A stretch of 64,000 nucleotides of DNA from Enterovibrio coralii. GTDB lineage: Bacteria; Pseudomonadota; Gammaproteobacteria; Enterobacterales; Vibrionaceae. Positions 53,163-62,734 of the stretch are shown here, piece by piece; within the stretch, counting starts at the first letter, position 1, and each line of letters begins with the position of its first letter. The notes under the pieces were generated by a model. It searched no databases, was not told where the DNA came from, and worked only from the letters and a program-made list of their open reading frames with translations. The position numbers were made by a program, and so were the translations under genes. The stretch lies in NCBI RefSeq assembly GCF_001559595.1, contig NZ_LNTY01000025.1, forward strand, positions 238,471-302,470, read 5' to 3'.

Positions 53163-53390
53163 ATGGAAGTGTTAGATCTGCTCGCAAACGTTTTGAATGC
53201 GTGGATTATTCTCGCAATTTTGGTCGTTGTTTTTCTTCGTGGTGCAGTCAAATTTGTACCGCAGAATACCGCGTTCGTTATTGAACGTTTTGGTAAATAT
53301 AACAAGACGATGGAAGCGGGCTTGAATTTCCTCGTGCCGTTCATCGATCGCGTGGCGTATGTTCATACGCCAAAACGCTACAACATTTAA
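53163..53390 (+). pseudogene. SPFH/stomatin-like protein, 5' fragment cut by insertion
   Basis: The first 70 residues of a QmcA/stomatin-type protein: a membrane helix (IILAILVVVFL), then VPQNTAFVIERFGKYN and AGLNFLVPFIDRVAYVHT. After ACG at 53369-53371 the frame runs into foreign sequence and stops at 53390. The 3' part resumes at 55692. Ribosome site GGGGG precedes the ATG. Intact relatives form membrane scaffolds and pair with an NfeD protein. Confidence 0.9.
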
Positions 53391-53679
53391 TATGCCCGGC
53401 CTGTCAGCATTTTGGGCTTTTGAATCCGTTTTTGTCCTCTCGATTGTTTAGTATTTGGTAACTGATACTTGTAAGGTTACTCGGTCTCTAATGTGATAAC
53501 TTGTTATAGTTAGGCCGTCGGCCTCCTTTGTATGCTTGTTTATGTCTGTTTTTTCGTCACACTCTGCTTGGTAATAGCTAAAAGGCAATATGTTGCTACC
53601 ATTTCTGGTAATGCATTGATAATATGTCGGTTAATGCGATTAAATTGGCAATTTAGATAGACGAAAACGTACTTAAACT

Positions 53680-54708
53680 ATGAAAGTAATTATTTTATCA
53701 GGTGCTGGCCTCTCTGTACCTTCAGGTTTGCCTGCATATGATGACATTAAAGACACACCTGAGTATCAAGCTTTCCTGAATGCCCATTACAATGAAGCAC
53801 AGGCACTTGCAGATAATATCTGTCATAGATATGAGTCGTTCAAGCCGAATCAAGCTCACTATGAGTGTGTGTACCTTGAGACATACTGTCAGTCATTGGG
53901 AGTTGAGTTTTATCACTACACCCTAAATGTTGATAATTTGGTCGAAAAAGCAGGAGGTCAAGCCGTGCATCTTCATGGGTGCATAGATGACCCTCACAGC
54001 ATTGTAAAGCATAAAGATGTTTCTAGTGTTGACCTGTTCGATCTCGAATGGGGACACAACGATTTGCTAATTGTCTTGGGCGTCAGCAATAGTGGTTTTC
54101 CATTAGCAGCGATTGAGGCCAATGCTCTGGCAGCAGGAGCCAAATTTGTAAACTACAACATTGAACCAAACAACGAAACATGCACCCCAACTGTAATCGG
54201 GGACTTGATAGATACGTTCAAGTTTTTAGATCATAGAAACTTGCCTCCGATTGAGTTGACGGAGGTTGATTTAGGGTTCATCGTCTACCAGATTGAGTGC
54301 AATATCTTGGGGAATGACTACACTGTGTACCTCACTCCTTCAACAGAGAGTGATTTCAGTGAAAGTAGACTAGTAGATACTCAAGAAAGGTTAGGCATGA
54401 CTCTTACAAACAATTGTTTTGAGATCAAATTTGATTTAAAATCAAACATTGATGACGGAACTTTGTTTGAACCACCAACACAATCGATTACTAGACGACA
54501 GCTGAATCTTCTAGGACGTGTCATAGCAGCCCTTTTGTTTTCACACTCGAAAAGTAAAAATGTGATCGCTTACACAGCATCTGCTGTGGATGTAAGGCTC
54601 GTACCGTTCTATAATTTACTTGCAAGGAAGTATGCAGATCATATAGGATATGATTCTTGGTGTAGTTTTGGCACTGAAGGAATAAATTATGCGTTTAAAA
54701 AGAAATGA
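53680..54708 (+). CDS. Sir2-domain protein with an uncharacterised C-terminal domain
   Basis: A 342-residue protein. The first 185 residues are a compact sirtuin: LSGAGLSVPSGLPAY binds NAD, TLNVDNLVEKAG is the NxD motif, VHLHGC carries the catalytic histidine, and LIVLGVSNSGFPLAAI with KFVNYNIEPN closes the site. The four zinc cysteines of deacetylases are not visible as CxxC pairs. Residues 190-342 form a separate domain that I do not recognise. Many bacterial Sir2 fusions act in phage defence by destroying NAD; that role is possible here because the gene rides on an insertion, but it is not shown. Ribosome site is weak. Confidence 0.82.
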   Translation: MKVIILSGAGLSVPSGLPAYDDIKDTPEYQAFLNAHYNEAQALADNICHRYESFKPNQAHYECVYLETYCQSLGVEFYHYTLNVDNLVEKAGGQAVHLHGCIDDPHSIVKHKDVSSVDLFDLEWGHNDLLIVLGVSNSGFPLAAIEANALAAGAKFVNYNIEPNNETCTPTVIGDLIDTFKFLDHRNLPPIELTEVDLGFIVYQIECNILGNDYTVYLTPSTESDFSESRLVDTQERLGMTLTNNCFEIKFDLKSNIDDGTLFEPPTQSITRRQLNLLGRVIAALLFSHSKSKNVIAYTASAVDVRLVPFYNLLARKYADHIGYDSWCSFGTEGINYAFKKK

Positions 54709-54814
54709 AGTAACGAACAAGCGTAAGCTTGAAGCGATGCGCAAATTGTCTCAGGCTTGTAACGCTGCTATCAAAGCAGGTAAGGCTAAGAAGGCTGTTC
54801 TAGACCCACAGTAA
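54689..54814 (+). CDS. 41-residue basic protein overlapping the Sir2 gene
   Basis: The ATG overlaps the last 20 bp of the Sir2 gene. The product is very basic and alanine-rich (KRNEVTNKRKLEAMRKLSQ, then CNAAIKAGKAKKAVLDPQ) and is followed 22 bp later by an intrinsic terminator, so both genes probably share one mRNA. I do not recognise it. It could be a partner or control peptide of the Sir2 protein. Short length makes the call uncertain. Confidence 0.55.
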   Translation: MRLKRNEVTNKRKLEAMRKLSQACNAAIKAGKAKKAVLDPQ

Positions 54815-54836
54815 GTGCTACTCCTGCCTCAACCAT

Positions 54837-54863
54837 AAAAGTCGACTATTAAGTCGACTTTTT
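54837..54863 (+). terminator. Intrinsic terminator after the Sir2 gene pair
   Basis: AAAAGTCGACT / AGTCGACTTTT, a perfect stem with a 4-base loop and a following T-run. Confidence 0.88.
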
Positions 54864-55265
54864 CGTATGAATGCGAAGTGAAATACTTAGGTATTGCCCT
54901 ACTAGTTGTTCAATCCTTATGCGATTGCTCTCACTTTAATTCGTAAAAACAAAGAAATAGCCCGAGATATAGGTTCTGCAACTTAGAGAGCTGGAGACTA
55001 TATGTCATTCTTTAGTCAGGCTTTTTAAAAAGAGGCTAAAGTAGATTACTTGAATTCTTTTAGTTTCTTACCGCGACAATAAAAAAGAGCTCCACCCGAA
55101 GCAAGTGTCGCGATGACTGAACAACAAATCAAACATCGAAATTCAGATGCTTGATTTATCCTTTGTTACAGAAGGCATTTAGTATAACCCTTAAGCACTA
55201 ATCATGGACATTCAAGTGAGGATGGCTGATGACTCTGTCTGTCGATAGTTGGGGGGCAAAGAAGT

Positions 55266-55297
55266 AAAAGCGTCACCCTACAGGTGATGCTTTTTGT
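55266..55297 (+). terminator. Intrinsic terminator within the insertion
   Basis: AAAAGCGTCACC / GGTGATGCTTTTT with one G-T pair and a 5-base loop. No gene is visible just before it, so it may end an unannotated RNA or the 54.9-55.2 kb region. Confidence 0.75.
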
Positions 55298-55352
55298 TTC
55301 TTCTGAAATGTTCGTTAGAAAAGAATCCGAAAGTTTCATTTCCCAGATTGTT

Positions 55353-55463
55353 AGCCCCTTAACGGCTTGCAAAGCTTCGGTGACCAAACAACAACTTAGC
55401 ACCACATCCAGTAACGTAATTTATCCTGTATTACTACAGCGAAGCTGTTTGCTGTTAAGGGGC
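55353..55463. repeat. Large imperfect inverted repeat in the insertion
   Basis: The left arm begins AGCCCCTTAACGGC and ends AGCTTCG (55353-55379); the right arm CGAAGCTG to CTGTTAAGGGGC (55440-55463) is its near complement. About 17 bases pair in two blocks around a 60-base centre. The CCTTAAC / GTTAAGG cores resemble, but do not match, the RYYYAAC / GTTRRRY boxes of integron attC sites. It could also be a structured RNA or transposon remnant. Confidence 0.6.
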
Positions 55464-55691
55464 GTACTGGATAGTAATTAAAGACCTAATTTCTAGCAAA
55501 AAAAGCTTCTCGCAAAGTTCCTCTTTTAACAATCGACCTTTTGTATATTTGTAAAAGTTTCATGAGAAAACTCAGCCTAGACACTCATAACACTTTGGGT
55601 TTAGTTACGTGTGAAATCAACTGTTGACCGCAGTTTCAGAAAATTTCTTTTCTTCTCTTAAATAGAAATGTTTAGTATTTCCCAACTAGGG

Positions 55692-56433
55692 CACGTTAAA
55701 AGAACAAGCGTTTGATGTTCCCTCCCAGTCTGCGATTACTCGAGACAACATCTCACTGGTAGTTGACGGCGTTCTCTATATCAAAGTACTCGACCCAGTG
55801 AAGGCGAGTTACGGTGTCGATGCGTACATTTTCTCTGTGACTCAGCTTGCTCAAACATCAATGCGTTCTGAAATTGGCCGCATGGAACTGGATAAAACCT
55901 TCGAAGAGAGTGAAAAACTGAACACTGCCATCGTAACCGCAATCAACGAAGCGGCTGCGCCATGGGGTGTGCAGGTAATGCGGTACGAAATCAAAGACAT
56001 CGATCCACCACGCTCCGTGCTGGATGCGATGGAGCGCCAAATGAAAGCTGAACGTGAAAAGCGTGCAGTGATCTTAGAATCAGAAGGTGCTCGCCAGTCT
56101 GAAATCAACGTTGCGGAAGGTCAGAAGCAAGCAAGGGTTCTGGCAGCAGAAGCAGAAAAAGCCGAGCAAATTCTCAAAGCGGAAGGTGAGGCGCAAGCTA
56201 TCCTTGCCGTAGCACAGGCACAAGCGGAAGCACTGGAAGTGGTTGGTCGCACGGCAGCAACCGATGAAGGCCAAAAGGCAATTCAGTTGGATCTAGCTGA
56301 CAAAGCGATTGAGGCGAAAAAAGCGATCGCGAAGGAGTCTTCCGTCGTTCTACTTCCTGATAGCCAATCAAATGCCGCGAACCTCGTTGCTGAGTCTATG
56401 AGTATCATCAATGCGTTGAACGCAAGGAAGTAA
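55692..56433 (+). pseudogene. SPFH/stomatin-like protein, 3' fragment
   Basis: The remainder of the SPFH protein: LKEQAFDVPSQSAITRDNIS, VDGVLYIKVLDPVKASYG, the MRSEIGRMELDKTFEE helix, and the long coiled coil rich in AEAEKAEQ typical of the family. It might be translated from an internal GTG at 55798, giving 211 residues without membrane anchor. Intact relatives oligomerise in the inner membrane and work with NfeD, which follows. Confidence 0.9.
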
Positions 56434-56434
56434 G

Positions 56435-56943
56435 ATGAACGTGTTGGATTACTTTCAAACAAATTTAGCGGAAGCACCATAGTGGTGGGCATGATTCTGC
56501 TGATTATTGAGATTTGGCTTTTCGGGCTATCGACCATTATTTTACTTGCGCTTGGCCTGTCCGCCGTTTTTACAGGCGGATTAGTTTGGGTTGGTGTGCT
56601 GTCAGAAACTGTCACCACAGTGGTGGCGGGCTCAGGTATCGGTGCGGGGATTCTAACTCTGTTGCTGTGGGGCCCAATGAAGCGTTCACAAGTCGTCACT
56701 AAGCGCGACTACAACATTCACAGTGATTTTATCGGTCTCGAATTCACGTTGGATTCGATGTTAGACATTCAAAATCCAGTGCCCGTGAAATATTCAGGGG
56801 TTGGCTGGAAGTTGGTACTTTCGAACAAACATCGAGATGCTGTTCTTGAACCCGGAGACACAGTTAAAGTTGTTGGTGTGGATGTCGGTAAGTTTTTCGT
56901 AGAGCCAAAGCCTCAGGATTCCGCGGCAGAAACAGCAAAGTAA
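56435..56943 (+). CDS. NfeD-family membrane protein (frameshifted)
   Basis: A 169-residue short NfeD protein when one base near 56473 is restored. The start MNVLDYFQTNLAE runs into a stop; the next frame continues STIVVGMILLIIEIWLFGL, the first membrane helix. Three or four helices precede a C-terminal OB-fold domain (LEPGDTVKVVGVDVGKFFVEP). NfeD and SPFH proteins are encoded together and act as a membrane quality-control pair. The gene lies one base after the SPFH fragment. Confidence 0.85.
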
Positions 56944-57098: not shown

Positions 57099-58186
57099 TT
57101 AAGCGATTTCACGCGGGCGATATGGATATCTCATCCTGATATCACCCACATCAAAAATGGTGAGTCCCTTGTTGTAATCAATGCGGTCGAGGATTTCGTT
57201 GTAGTGATTCAACTCGTCACTGGGTGTAGCCCATTGCGATTCAGGTATTGGTTTACTCCATTCGACGACTTCCGGAAACGTTTCGGCATTTTGTCTCATC
57301 TTTTTGGTTTCATGGTTGATGCGCCAAATCCCAAGCCAAGTGCCGTTGATAGCCCACCAGAAGTGTCGCCAAAAACCGAACTCTTTTTCTTCGATCTCAT
57401 ACGCTTCGCAATGTTGTTGCTTGAGTCCTTGGTAGGTTAAGGGGGAAGGTTCACCAATGTATTCTGGGCCATCTTCCATATAGGTGCGGATCATCTCCCA
57501 CAAACTGGCGGCGTGTACTTTGGTGATGGCGCCGGTTTGCAGGGTGCCCCAGAAATAGCCGTGCTTTTCATCACTGTTGATGCCAATGATCAAAGACGCG
57601 GTGGTGAATACCCCACCAGTTGTCATGGCACTGCTCTGGCCGACCATGGCACAGACGGTTTCCCAAGGAAAAAAGCGGTACTCGGTGCATTTTTTCTCTT
57701 TGTTCCAGCGGGAAAACATAATTTCCCGACGCTGACGGTGGAAACGTACGGGCAGGGTTTGAGTCAGCATTTTTCGGGCGTGGCTATGGACTTTGTAAAG
57801 AATGAACCACCCACCCAGCATAGGTAGAAAAAAACCGCAATCCCAGCAAATGTCAGCATAGGGTCTAATACATCAATCCATACCCCATCGATTTTCTGCT
57901 CTCGATAAATGGCATCGATAAACCCCATTACGCCTCCATTTCCCCAGAGAAGGTAGAGCGGGAGCCAGAGAGTCATCAAGAACATGACCCACATTTGCTG
58001 GGTTTGGAAAATCATGCCGCCGGCACCGCCGACTTCAATGTAGCTGTCGGTCTTTTTAACCAAAATATCGTGGGTATCTAATGGGGGAATATTGGTGTGC
58101 ACCGGGACAGGGCTTATTACCAAACTACTGCCAAAGGTTTTGTCAGTCACTTGACCAGCAAAAAAGGGAAAGTCGTGTAGAGTCAT
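57099..58186 (-). CDS. Type VI module membrane protein, DUF6708-like, copy 2 (frameshifted)
   Basis: A 362-residue protein when the T-run at 57828-57834 (A-run on the + strand) is given one more base: the membrane helix then reads AVFFLPMLGGWFILYKV, the same as in copy 1. Two membrane segments (about 65-85 and 120-140) are followed by a soluble domain of about 220 residues. It is nearly identical to the upstream copy over the last 220 residues. Its start overlaps the stop of copy 1 (ATGA). The family name DUF6708 is from memory and uncertain. Position after a toxin gene suggests immunity. Confidence 0.7.
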
Positions 58187-59288
58187 GGCGTCATACTTTC
58201 CCTTTTGAGCGACGGTTGTCGATAAGGATACTTCACCCTAATATCACCCACATCAAAAATGGTGAGTCCCTTGTTGTAATCAATGCGATCGAGGATTTCG
58301 TTATAGTGATTCAATTCGTTACTGGGTGTAGCCCATTGCGATTCCGGTATCGGCTTACTCCATTCGACGATTTCCTGAAACGTTTCTGCATTTTGTTTCA
58401 TCTTTTTGGTTTCATGGTTGATGCGCCAAATCCCAAGCCAAGTGCCGTTGATAGCCCACCAGAAGTGTCGCCAAAAACCGAACTCTTTTTCTTCGATCTC
58501 ATACGCTTCGCAATGTTGTTGCTTGAGTCCTTGGTAGGTTAAGGGGGAAGGTTTACCGATATACTCTGGACCATCTTCCATGTAGGTGCGGATCATCTCC
58601 CACAAACTGGCGGCGTGAAACTTGGTGATGGCTCCGGTTTGCAGGGTTCCCCAGAAGTAGCCGTGTTTTTCATCACTGTTGATACCAATGATCAAAGACG
58701 CGGTGGTGAATACCCCGCCAGTTGTTATGGCACTGCTCTGGCCGACCATGGCACAGGCTGTTTCCCAAGGAAAAAAGCGGTACTCAGTGCATTTTTTCTC
58801 TTTGTTCCAGCGGGAAAACATAATTTCCCGACGCTGACGGTGGAAACGTACAGGAAGAGTTTGGGTAAGCGTTTTCCGAGCGTGGCTATGGACTTTGAAT
58901 AGAATGAACACCCTGCAAGCATGGGGATAAAAAATAACCCTATTCCCCCAAATACCTGCATTGGGTCTAATATATCTACCCAAACGCCATCGATTTTCTG
59001 CTCTCTATAAAAGGCATTGATAAATCCCATTATGCCCCCATCACTCCATAGCAGCCAGATTGGAATACCAAGACTCATCAAGAAGATAACCCACATTTGC
59101 TGGGTTTGGAAAATCATGCCGCCTGCACCGCCCATCTCAATGTAACTATCTGTTTTATTGACCAAAATATCATGGGTGTCTAAAGGAGGAAGATTGGTGT
59201 ACACCGGGACAGGGCTGAGCACCAAACTGCTGCCAAAGGTTTTGTTAGTCAGTTGGCCGGCAAAAAAGGGAAAGTCGTGTGTAGTCAT
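58183..59288 (-). CDS. Type VI module membrane protein, DUF6708-like, copy 1 (frameshifted)
   Basis: A 368-residue protein when one base near 58909 is restored, giving IPMLAGWFILFKV at the second helix. It has the same layout as copy 2: N-terminal HDFPFFAGQLTNKTFGSSL, two membrane segments, then a C-terminal domain starting ARKTLTQTLPVRFHRQRREI. It starts with an ATGA overlap at the end of the effector gene, as immunity genes often do. The high similarity of the two copies marks a recent tandem duplication. Confidence 0.7.
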
Positions 59289-62200
59289 AACGATTCCTCT
59301 ATGTTTCTGATGGGGAGTAAAGCGGACTCCAAGGATTTTCTTCGGGTCAATTGACCGTCTTCTTTTTCCAACTGCTCCACGAGATAGAGGTTTTGTTGAC
59401 CTTCGACTTGTTCGAGATTCTCTGGGTGTTGTAGATTGATGGTAAATCTGGCACCAGACTGGTCATCAAACAATACCGTGCCAAACTTTGAGGTGACTGC
59501 GACCAGTAGATCGAGATACTCAAGATTATGGTGGCGTTGGCTGTCCTGCGGAAAATCAAATTCATAGACGGTATTCATGCCATCGTCACTGACTCTTGGT
59601 TTAGCAAGTAACTCGGACTGGGTAATATCAATGGTCTTGTCTGAGCCTTTATGTTTTATAAAACCGGCCAGTTTTACTTGATGTGGTTTCGCCTGCGGGA
59701 TAAATATGCTTAGAACGGAGACATAGTGATAGGTTTCATAGCTTGAAGTAAGATCCCGCGGCGATGTATATACAATGCGTCTGCTTTGCTTTGCTTCAAT
59801 CAATACTTGAGGTGCTTGTGTCACTTCAATCCATTTTGTTAATTGGGTGAGGCTGTCCCAGTTTCTGTTGCCATCAAACCACCACGTTTTGTCTTTACCC
59901 CAATTAGAGTGGCTTACCCATAGCATCAGAGGGGTCGACTGGGTGGAGTTATATATCAGTTCTCCTACAAAGATGAGTGCACTGGCTGCAAGTAACCCAA
60001 GGTTAGAAGCCAATGCTACACCAAAAGTACGAACCCCAGCGACAGCCCAGGTGATTTCACTTGCTATAGCCGCCATTGACGCTCTGGTGCCCGCATATAC
60101 TATGCGCCCTGAATACCAGCCTTGAACACCGTTGCCCATCAAGGCAAAGCTGGCCCCAGCCACCGCGGCCATATCGCCTTTTTGCCAACTCTTTTCAATG
60201 CGCTCTCCCTGCACCATACCATTAGCTGCCGACGACAAAAGTAGAGGAATCGACGCTGCTGTAGTGCCTAGGGCAACCACTTTACCGACCAGATTCTGAC
60301 TGACGTCGGTGCCAGTTTTAAAGTGCTGGATCAATGCTGTGGAGCGAAGGATCTCTGTAGATAGTGAAAGGGCAGATGACGTCACACTGAGAAAGTTGGA
60401 CGCGTGGGTGGCTTTATCAAAACGATCCCAATCTGACTTTCTCCCCAGCTCTTTCGCTGTCTCGCCCCAGTTCCACGCTTCGACCATAAACGTGATGAAT
60501 GCGAGAGAACCTGCGCCGATATTTCCTTTGATGCTGAACTTGGAGCTGTCCGGTGTTCCATAAAGAAGCTCATTGGCCAAGATTTCTTGCTTCAATGTTT
60601 TTATTTTATTGACGTCATCTATTGCGTTGTCTTTTACAGTGATGGAAATTTGTGTCGGTAGGTGAGAGCCTGAACCGCCGATTGGGGAGGCGTGAGCTTG
60701 AAGTTGCTTGAGTTTACGCTCCGTCATTTCACGAACGTCATGCAATGCCTGTCTGTAGCGGGCGCGTTGGGCGTCTTTTTCTGCGGCTGTTAAGCCTTTC
60801 AACTGTTCGACCTGATTGAGTTGCTTTTGTGTGATTTCAAGGTTTTCTTTCAGGGTAATCAGGTCGTCCAGTAGCCTATCAAGCTGCTTCGCCCCTTCCG
60901 CACCTCCCATGTTGAGTGAGATATCGGCATTTTTACGATGCCCCAATAATAACAAGGCAAAACCCGGTGAGAGGCGTTGTGTTATTTGGTCCGCTTTTAG
61001 CTGAAGATCCAGTGCTTGTTCAATCAAGCTATTGACTTCCAGTAGAGATAAGTTGGCCAATTGAAGGCCAAACAAACTGAACTCATTTCTGATGTTACCA
61101 GGCAGATCGTCGATAAGTGTAAAGTTCTGGCCTTCCATATAGACGCGTAAATCTTCCAGTGGTTTCAAGCCTTCGCTGGTTGCCAGCGCTGCGTCAGAGG
61201 TGCTCAGTAAGTTGACAATATCGGTTCGGCCCGTATTGTCTTGAAATGTGGCGACGTTCTCTGCGTTACTGCGGAATAACTGGGTATTTTGTTCACCAAT
61301 TTCCTCAAAGAAAAACCGACGATACGCAGGGAGGTTTTTCTCTTGGAAGGCGAGGTTGTATGCCCAGTGATTCTCTATTCTAAGTCGGGCAAGAAGCCCA
61401 TCTTTATTTTCTTTGTCAAACACGGGCATGGCTTGATATGCAGGGGTAAGCATGTTCAAACGGTCATCATCAAGGCTTTCTAATTGTTTTTGCCAATTGA
61501 CGACTTTCTCGTGGGACGGTCTGAACCAGGTTTCCATTTCCTCCTCTTCAATTCGATCCAGTATCCCGCGATGACCCATACCGCCTTCAAGTAACGTGTG
61601 GTGCTGCGCGCGGACTTGTCGGAAAACCCTATCGAGATGTTTCCTTGGAACGCCGATTTTATCTGCAAGCTCTTGGTTTAGCCGAATTTGTCGCCCATAT
61701 TCATCGGCAGTTTCATAGTTAAGTGCTGCAGATCGGAAGTGGTAACCGTAAACCGTACTATCTTCTTGTGCGGTCAGCCTTTGTAGGGCATCACGAGAGC
61801 TTGTATAAGCGTCATAGCGTTCTTGTACTTCTTGGAAGTTGTTGTTGATATACGTGTTTAATTTGTCGTCCTTGCTGTGCTGAAGGAAATGGTCCTCTTG
61901 CAGTACCATCAGCATTTTTATCTGTGATGCAGCAAAGTACTTTGCACTGTTTTCATCAGAGGCAAACCAAACTTGTTTTTGATTGGCGATGGATATAAAT
62001 GCGCCGGAAAGTTCATTCATCAATCCTATTGGGTCTTCCAACAATAAAATTGCCCTGTCTTTTTGATATTGGCTTAGCGTGTTGCTTAATATGTTCTCGA
62101 CGTTGTAAATCTCAGGCTTTTCAGTTTCCCAGCACCATTGTTGTTCTTTTATATTGGTACTCTTTTCCGGTGTGCAATCAGCGAGATATTGATGCAAGTG

Positions 62201-62734
62201 CTCAGGTGGTAATAAGTGACGTGAACCATTATCGGCTTTGTATGAACTCAGGTTACATCGTTGCATGATCTGTCGTCTGAGAGACGTATCGTTAAGGAGC
62301 TGACCTTGAAGTTTTGGGGAGATAGGAAGCCGACTAAAGAGAACGTCGATACTGCCACTTCTTTTTACCAGCAAGCCAGTCTCTGACTCGGTGTACACAA
62401 ACTCTTGCCCGTCCTGAGTTTCTTGAAACGATTTTTGTTCAAGCTTGGTCACTTTGCTATCGGTGGTGACCGAAAATGCGTAAATGATGTCTTGTCGTTC
62501 GCTGTGAATTACGTAAATAAATCCATCACTGAATAGAGGCCTGATACCAACGGGTCTGAATTTTATTTTGGCAGAATGAGCACTTGCTATTGCACTGTGT
62601 TCTTGCTCTGACTCGACTAAAGCATAACGTATTGGTAGTAACTGAATGCTCCCTTGCTTTAACGAACACACTCCCGTCGGGCTTTGCGCATCTTTAGTAT
62701 CACCACATTGGGCATCTTGTACTGGGGAGGTCAA
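59285..62734 (-). CDS. VasX-like type VI secretion effector
   Basis: A 1149-residue protein with no signal peptide. The N-terminal 200 residues (IQLLPIRYALVE, then FSDGFIYVIHS) match the VasX N-terminal domain found on type VI effectors loaded onto VgrG. A long helical middle region follows. Residues about 810-930 contain hydrophobic helices (LVGKVVALGTTAASIPLLL, LGLLAASALIFVGELIY), as in the pore-forming VasX of V. cholerae, which permeabilises the membrane of target cells. It overlaps the DUF4123 gene before and the membrane protein gene after by 4 bp each. Confidence 0.85.
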   Translation of the reverse strand: MTSPVQDAQCGDTKDAQSPTGVCSLKQGSIQLLPIRYALVESEQEHSAIASAHSAKIKFRPVGIRPLFSDGFIYVIHSERQDIIYAFSVTTDSKVTKLEQKSFQETQDGQEFVYTESETGLLVKRSGSIDVLFSRLPISPKLQGQLLNDTSLRRQIMQRCNLSSYKADNGSRHLLPPEHLHQYLADCTPEKSTNIKEQQWCWETEKPEIYNVENILSNTLSQYQKDRAILLLEDPIGLMNELSGAFISIANQKQVWFASDENSAKYFAASQIKMLMVLQEDHFLQHSKDDKLNTYINNNFQEVQERYDAYTSSRDALQRLTAQEDSTVYGYHFRSAALNYETADEYGRQIRLNQELADKIGVPRKHLDRVFRQVRAQHHTLLEGGMGHRGILDRIEEEEMETWFRPSHEKVVNWQKQLESLDDDRLNMLTPAYQAMPVFDKENKDGLLARLRIENHWAYNLAFQEKNLPAYRRFFFEEIGEQNTQLFRSNAENVATFQDNTGRTDIVNLLSTSDAALATSEGLKPLEDLRVYMEGQNFTLIDDLPGNIRNEFSLFGLQLANLSLLEVNSLIEQALDLQLKADQITQRLSPGFALLLLGHRKNADISLNMGGAEGAKQLDRLLDDLITLKENLEITQKQLNQVEQLKGLTAAEKDAQRARYRQALHDVREMTERKLKQLQAHASPIGGSGSHLPTQISITVKDNAIDDVNKIKTLKQEILANELLYGTPDSSKFSIKGNIGAGSLAFITFMVEAWNWGETAKELGRKSDWDRFDKATHASNFLSVTSSALSLSTEILRSTALIQHFKTGTDVSQNLVGKVVALGTTAASIPLLLSSAANGMVQGERIEKSWQKGDMAAVAGASFALMGNGVQGWYSGRIVYAGTRASMAAIASEITWAVAGVRTFGVALASNLGLLAASALIFVGELIYNSTQSTPLMLWVSHSNWGKDKTWWFDGNRNWDSLTQLTKWIEVTQAPQVLIEAKQSRRIVYTSPRDLTSSYETYHYVSVLSIFIPQAKPHQVKLAGFIKHKGSDKTIDITQSELLAKPRVSDDGMNTVYEFDFPQDSQRHHNLEYLDLLVAVTSKFGTVLFDDQSGARFTINLQHPENLEQVEGQQNLYLVEQLEKEDGQLTRRKSLESALLPIRNIEESL

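Follow-up and report, generated by a model that had tools for sequence, protein, structure and literature searches.

A two-gene unit, encoding a Sir2-domain protein and a basic microprotein, lies within a foreign insert that splits a qmcA-type SPFH gene of Enterovibrio coralii, in a 64,000-nucleotide stretch of contig NZ_LNTY01000025.1 (the window). The recurring entity is this two-gene family rather than the insert or its landing in qmcA. We propose, at a probability of roughly 0.4, that the unit serves as an anti-phage system (or a toxin-antitoxin system) whose Sir2 domain would consume nicotinamide adenine dinucleotide (NAD+) under the control of the protein's C-terminal domain (C-domain) and the microprotein. 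A small, travelling anti-virus unit is suggested because further copies of the pair lie within a prophage, on a plasmid, and next to CRISPR repeats and defence genes. Bacterial immunity commonly uses SIR2 domains as effectors, and no family in the searched libraries matches the architecture of the pair, a Sir2 domain without the zinc module linked to a GNAT-like domain and accompanied by a basic microprotein in an overlapping frame at every intact locus read. At ~1.3 kb, the unit is small enough for a direct test in E. coli.

53574..53679, forward strand: upstream region common to other copies of the pair; DNA similarity begins at 53574 (viral contig L052) and 53615 (Vibrio tasmaniensis contig L031)
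53680..54708, forward strand: Sir2-domain protein, 342 residues, with a tentatively GNAT-like C-domain (about residues 194–342)
54689..54814, forward strand: microprotein open reading frame (ORF), 41 residues, isoelectric point 10.8, 20-nt overlap with the Sir2 gene; small ORF present in 12 of 12 intact loci
54838..54864, forward strand: terminator-like hairpin after the pair, read by eye and absent from the hairpin scan

An earlier reading of the window (the original prediction) had rightly described the cargo as a Sir2-domain protein and a tiny ORF, treating the latter as an aside. The microprotein is instead half of a conserved unit. The small ORF overlaps the 3′ end of the preceding gene in all 12 intact loci read, six in which the C-domain is fused to Sir2 and six in which it is free-standing, without Sir2 and with its own small ORF, and one sequence pattern is common to 11 of these small ORFs. 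The microprotein is basic and lysine-rich and its protein partner is acidic. At all 12 loci the two small overlapping genes have a toxin-antitoxin-like layout, the second gene being a putative neutraliser only; the microprotein has no known antitoxin domain in Pfam, NCBIfam or PHROGs, and neither it nor the C-domain has a usable match in these libraries. DNA similarity with L031 and L052, which runs from 53574 or 53615 to ~54866 or 54792, covers only the upstream region, the two genes and, in L052, the terminator; other loci carry different stems at the terminator position. A literature search, mostly of open-access texts, showed among the papers listed none on the pair or on qmcA as an insertion site.

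The Sir2 domain is recognised by Pfam (PF02146; E = 3e-5, 24.5 bits against a cut-off of 24) and also by fold, while the relatives P0016, P0021 and P0024 fall under the same cut-off. By both sequence and fold the nearest Sir2 domain is that of CobB. The Sir2 catalytic residues of the window protein are N83 and H99, which are kept in 22 of 22 and 16 of 22 aligned family members, respectively. The zinc-ribbon module is reduced, with 18 residues between the aligned pieces versus 50 in CobB and one cysteine in this segment of the window protein. Pfam and PADLOC searches of the two genes found none of the known partners or domains of SIR2 defence (HerA, SLOG, Ago), and PADLOC gave no family match save one weak one. 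Six phage records show similarity over the first ~100 residues only; these are annotated Sir2 proteins from phages larger than 330 kb. The assignment of the C-domain as GNAT-like, and otherwise unclassified, is tentative: the order of elements is GNAT-like but the fold match is near noise level, and the weak Foldseek matches listed include KacT, AtaT and TacT2. A search with the C-domain profile found no acetyltransferase of known structure. The GNAT acetyl-CoA motif is Q/R-x-x-G-x-G/A, of which the C-domain keeps the first glycine, the second not being conserved.

In the proposed system, the C-domain and microprotein would hold the Sir2 domain in check, phage infection would free it from this control, and the freed domain would use up NAD+. 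We infer NAD+ cleavage, a phage trigger and a microprotein that restrains its acidic partner or serves it as an adaptor; the choice of an NAD+ effector is based on the Sir2 core and its reduced zinc module, on a strictly kept two-gene layout whose products are oppositely charged, and on some of the neighbours. The pair resembles SIR2-based NAD+-cleaving (NADase) defence of the Nezha/SIR2-HerA type, as portrayed in PMC11559045, in its Sir2 core with Asn and His, small size, patchiness, partial defence company and possible NAD+ depletion. It differs in lacking HerA, SLOG or another known partner, and in its GNAT-like C-domain, its basic microprotein and, in part of the family, a tyrosine in place of the catalytic histidine. 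We take ThsA and DSR to be further SIR2-based NADase defence systems.

The unit is patchily spread. Any match was found in 20 of 329 genomes of the family Vibrionaceae, and a close or full-length Sir2 relative in four, the host's own included. The C-domain and microprotein are present in Vibrio, Aliivibrio, Alteromonas and Yersinia DNA, at scattered sites that include prophages, two plasmids, and positions beside a CRISPR array, beside NsnAB and beside a Hachiman/Lamassu-like gene.

Sir2-fused locus 1 of 7: the window, in qmcA, chromosome
Sir2-fused locus 2 of 7: V. tasmaniensis (L031), adjoins a trxB-like gene
Sir2-fused locus 3 of 7: L052, a 46-kb IMG/VR contig, adjoins an amidase gene, with NsnAB, a cytosine methylase and a KAP NTPase within a few kb
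Sir2-fused locus 4 of 7: G024 (L131), ~0.45 kb upstream of a 1,190-residue protein matching HamB/LmuA
Sir2-fused locus 5 of 7: Alteromonas plasmid, transfer genes present
Sir2-fused locus 6 of 7: G483 (L130), ~150 bp from a CRISPR-type array, Phd/ParE and Bro-N genes nearby
Sir2-fused locus 7 of 7: G119 (L035/L132), broken copy
Free-standing locus: L039/L137, D-Ala-D-Ala carboxypeptidase and Fic genes adjoining, phage-like surroundings
Free-standing locus: L036, adjoins a RelE-family gene and a helix-turn-helix (HTH) gene
Free-standing locus: Yersinia plasmid
Free-standing loci: L037 and L038, metabolic neighbours by eye
Free-standing locus: G524 (L129)

The array at L130 (L128:310–1238) has 28-bp repeats at 60-bp spacing, and we take it to be I-F-like. 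The 1,190-residue protein (L131 10035–13607) matches HamB at E = 4e-211 and LmuA at E = 3e-62, and is an unusual Lamassu/Hachiman mix, its N-terminal part being MBL/LmuA-like and its helicase part HamB-like. In the broken copy at L035/L132, the Sir2 gene, 75% identical, breaks off after residue 168 and is followed by a DDE transposase gene. Prophage defence hotspots (PMC9122126) hold ~1–5 kb of defence cargo, in Vibrionaceae too, some of it with SIR2 domains. L052 and L039 adjoin lysis genes and do not lie between cI and integrase, and the window copy differs further in its position within a conserved gene.

The original prediction associated Sir2 proteins on mobile DNA with anti-phage defence. 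The family does occur on mobile DNA, but it stands beside defence genes only in part, at three of the seven Sir2-fused loci, a count that derives from neighbours hand-picked by eye and only partly scanned, with PADLOC covering the neighbours of three of the seven and no background rate. Three observations weigh against an NADase defence system. The other four Sir2-fused loci have no visible defence neighbour. The sequence is deacylase-like, the NCBIfam and PDB matches being protein deacylases. In six of the 22 aligned members (rows P0010 and P0020–P0024 of A1, and also L128), tyrosine replaces the catalytic histidine in an HxYG motif, which argues against a plain NADase; the histidine two residues earlier is invariant, and this branch may have a rearranged active site.

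It is possible, with appreciably lower odds than the defence reading, that the unit is a plain toxin-antitoxin pair in which an acidic toxin is silenced by the basic microprotein and which serves the upkeep of mobile DNA rather than defence. Such a pair would account for the small size and overlap of the two genes, for the RelE-family/HTH pair by L036, the Phd/ParE genes near L130 and the Fic gene near L137, and for the copies on prophages and plasmids. However, defence genes not of the toxin-antitoxin type are also among the neighbours, and the window copy is chromosomal and has broken a host gene.

It is unlikely that the protein is a regulatory or metabolic deacylase of no special defence role that came in passively with foreign DNA, even though CobB-type enzymes provide its nearest Sir2 domain, its library matches are deacylases and most Sir2-fused loci (four of seven) are without visible defence company. 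It differs from CobB-type deacylases in its reduced zinc module, added C-domain, obligate small ORF and scattered mobile sites, and both the occurrence of the C-domain and small ORF independently of Sir2 and the patchy spread described above (20 and four of 329 genomes) speak against this alternative.

About equally unlikely is an acylation switch, in which the GNAT-like C-domain or a host enzyme would place acyl groups on microprotein lysines for the fused Sir2 domain to remove with NAD+, the activity of the unit being set by the NAD+ level or by infection. The Sir2 core closest to the deacylase CobB, the GNAT-like element order and the lysine-rich partner are consistent with such a switch, and there is a precedent in separate proteins, in that CobB reverses the acetylation of TacA by TacT (PMC5449658). 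TacAT-type toxin-antitoxin with CobB is likewise similar in joining an acyltransferase fold, a small partner and a sirtuin in one circuit (PMC5449658). The pair differs in having Sir2 and GNAT-like domains on one chain, an acetyl-CoA motif that is not kept and a microprotein without a known antitoxin domain; the unconserved motif, the near-noise fold match and the tyrosine substitution in six of 22 members all count against the switch. We consider quite improbable its self-contained form, in which one chain would carry both a Sir2 eraser and a writer-like GNAT domain, the two would act on the lysine-rich microprotein and NAD+ would arm or disarm an anti-phage response, the free-standing C-domain/microprotein pairs representing an older core to which Sir2 was later fused as an NAD+-sensing arm.

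The anti-phage unit that we favour reached the window by a clean insertion, the features of which are as follows.

53163..53369, forward strand: left part (codons 1–69) of the split qmcA-type SPFH gene; Band_7 (PF01145) E = 2.4e-6; matches the relatives' uninterrupted gene
53367..53369, forward strand: ACG at the left joint, a copy of a 2–3-bp repeat, from the sequence and comparison with relatives
53370..55692, no strand: foreign insert, 2,323 bp, missing here in 15 of 17 other same-genus genomes (two gave no match)
54866..55692, no strand: tail without recognised genes, 827 bp, no match in 328 other family genomes; two ORFs, no usable PHROG match
55354..55463, no strand: long hairpin in the tail, inverted repeat I3; DNA fold z −2.71, 3 of 200 shuffles equally good
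55693..55695, forward strand: ACG at the right joint, repeat copy, from the sequence
55696..56433, forward strand: right part of the split SPFH gene; Band_7 E = 1.8e-22, Band_7_C E = 1.6e-14
56482..56943, forward strand: downstream NfeD-like gene, frame open; PF01957 E = 8e-4, under the cut-off

The SPFH frame reads from the ATG at 53163 to Thr69 (ACG, 53367–53369) and restarts in frame at the ACG at 55693–55695 (TLKEQAFDV...), with its stop ending at 56433. The two halves together match one relative gene over its whole length, with no base lost and the frame kept. The comparison of the empty locus in relatives proposed in the original prediction found the gene uninterrupted in 15 of 17 other same-genus genomes, with no match in G001 and G011, and bears out the claim of an SPFH gene split by foreign DNA with ACG at both joints; the predicted 2,320 bp and joints at 53372 and 55691 were off by a few bases. 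Since codon 69 is ACA in the nearest relative (G015) and ACG elsewhere (L007, L011 and L015), the joint repeat is 2–3 bp and a 3-bp duplication is unproven. An assembly join is very improbable: the estimated contamination of the assembly is 5.45%, but in-frame halves of one gene flank the insert with no base lost on a 302-kb contig. The CGTATGTTCATACG of the target, extended by the first two bases of the insert, makes a perfect palindrome, GGCGTATG-TT-CATACGCC, across the left joint (53352–53369 with 53370–53371); neither this palindrome nor the subterminal repeat described below points to an insertion mechanism.

No second qmcA was found in the host genome, because the remaining SPFH matches, an adjacent pair on another host contig, are only 24% and 27% identical. 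The insertion is a natural disruption of qmcA, the function of which was presumably lost. SPFH matches at E ≤ 1e-20 occur in 324 of 329 family genomes, many of them distant proteins (about 40–43% identical), and among the matches listed there is no other split like that of the window to mark qmcA as an integration hotspot.

The insert is a single copy in the host genome and is AT-rich, as predicted, with a GC content of 0.395 versus 0.469 and 0.473 in the two flanking 5-kb segments. A search of 328 other Vibrionaceae genomes, in which each of the rows listed had two candidates scored per genome, gave no match at E ≤ 0.001 for its left 272 bp or its right 827 bp, and plasmid and phage collections gave none for the whole insert. 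In keeping with the claim that it carries no recombinase of its own, none was recognised in the two genes (Pfam, PADLOC, NCBIfam and PHROGs) or the two tail ORFs (PHROGs only). The non-coding tail has strong hairpins at 55266–55294 and 55354–55463 and, folded as RNA, beats 20 of 20 shuffles (z −3.3). The second hairpin is attC-like, but an integron cassette was rejected as the joints are not at the hairpin ends and the R-box, judged by eye against what we take to be its consensus, is a misfit. A group I or II intron was rejected, no Rfam family reaching its gathering score in the window, as was an insertion sequence (IS)-type element, no terminal inverted repeats being seen by eye. The direct repeat TGTTTAGTATTTNNNAACT lies near both insert ends (53445–53463 and 55669–55687), its only two occurrences in the host genome at up to one mismatch. 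A similar terminal repeat arose in 3 of 1000 shuffles using a 100-bp window chosen post hoc and in 17 of 60 using the whole insert, and the motif also occurs once each in 63 viral stretches. Recombinase arm sites were rejected on account of this doubtful significance and the viral occurrences.

A second readable empty site shows 1,484 bp with the unit (one repeat counted) in G024, absent from G023 and G022. Its joints are a direct repeat of 14 of 15 bp (L131 8328–8342 and 9812–9826), a second direct repeat matches at 21 of 23 bp (L131 8238–8260 and 9787–9809), and the left side goes beyond a simple insertion, the relatives holding ~0.5 kb extra just upstream. The window and L131 have different ends, lengths and repeats, and no element boundary common to them emerged. 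The suggestion in the original prediction of a new class of mobile element is not borne out: no second copy with the same ends turned up in 328 family genomes or the plasmid and phage collections, and the head and tail are unmatched there. In V. tasmaniensis (L031), the relatives' DNA match ends ~365–425 bp before the Sir2 gene and the other boundary is close to or past the end of the contig; a piece of its tail matches G181 twice, around a transposase gene beside IS66-like genes, and is probably, by eye, an IS66 remnant. The unit seems to travel in various ways, and two routes fit the entry of the 2.3 kb into qmcA: recombination by an enzyme provided in trans, or the capture of a DNA fragment.

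Elsewhere in the window, the region 57099–62734 contains a VasX_N-domain gene on the minus strand (59285–62734; PF20249, E = 1.4e-21), followed by what seem to be two copies of a gene pair (57099–57821 with 57764–58186, and 58183–58983 with 58725–59288), one of them with DUF6708. Perhaps the immunity genes for a type VI secretion toxin have been duplicated here.
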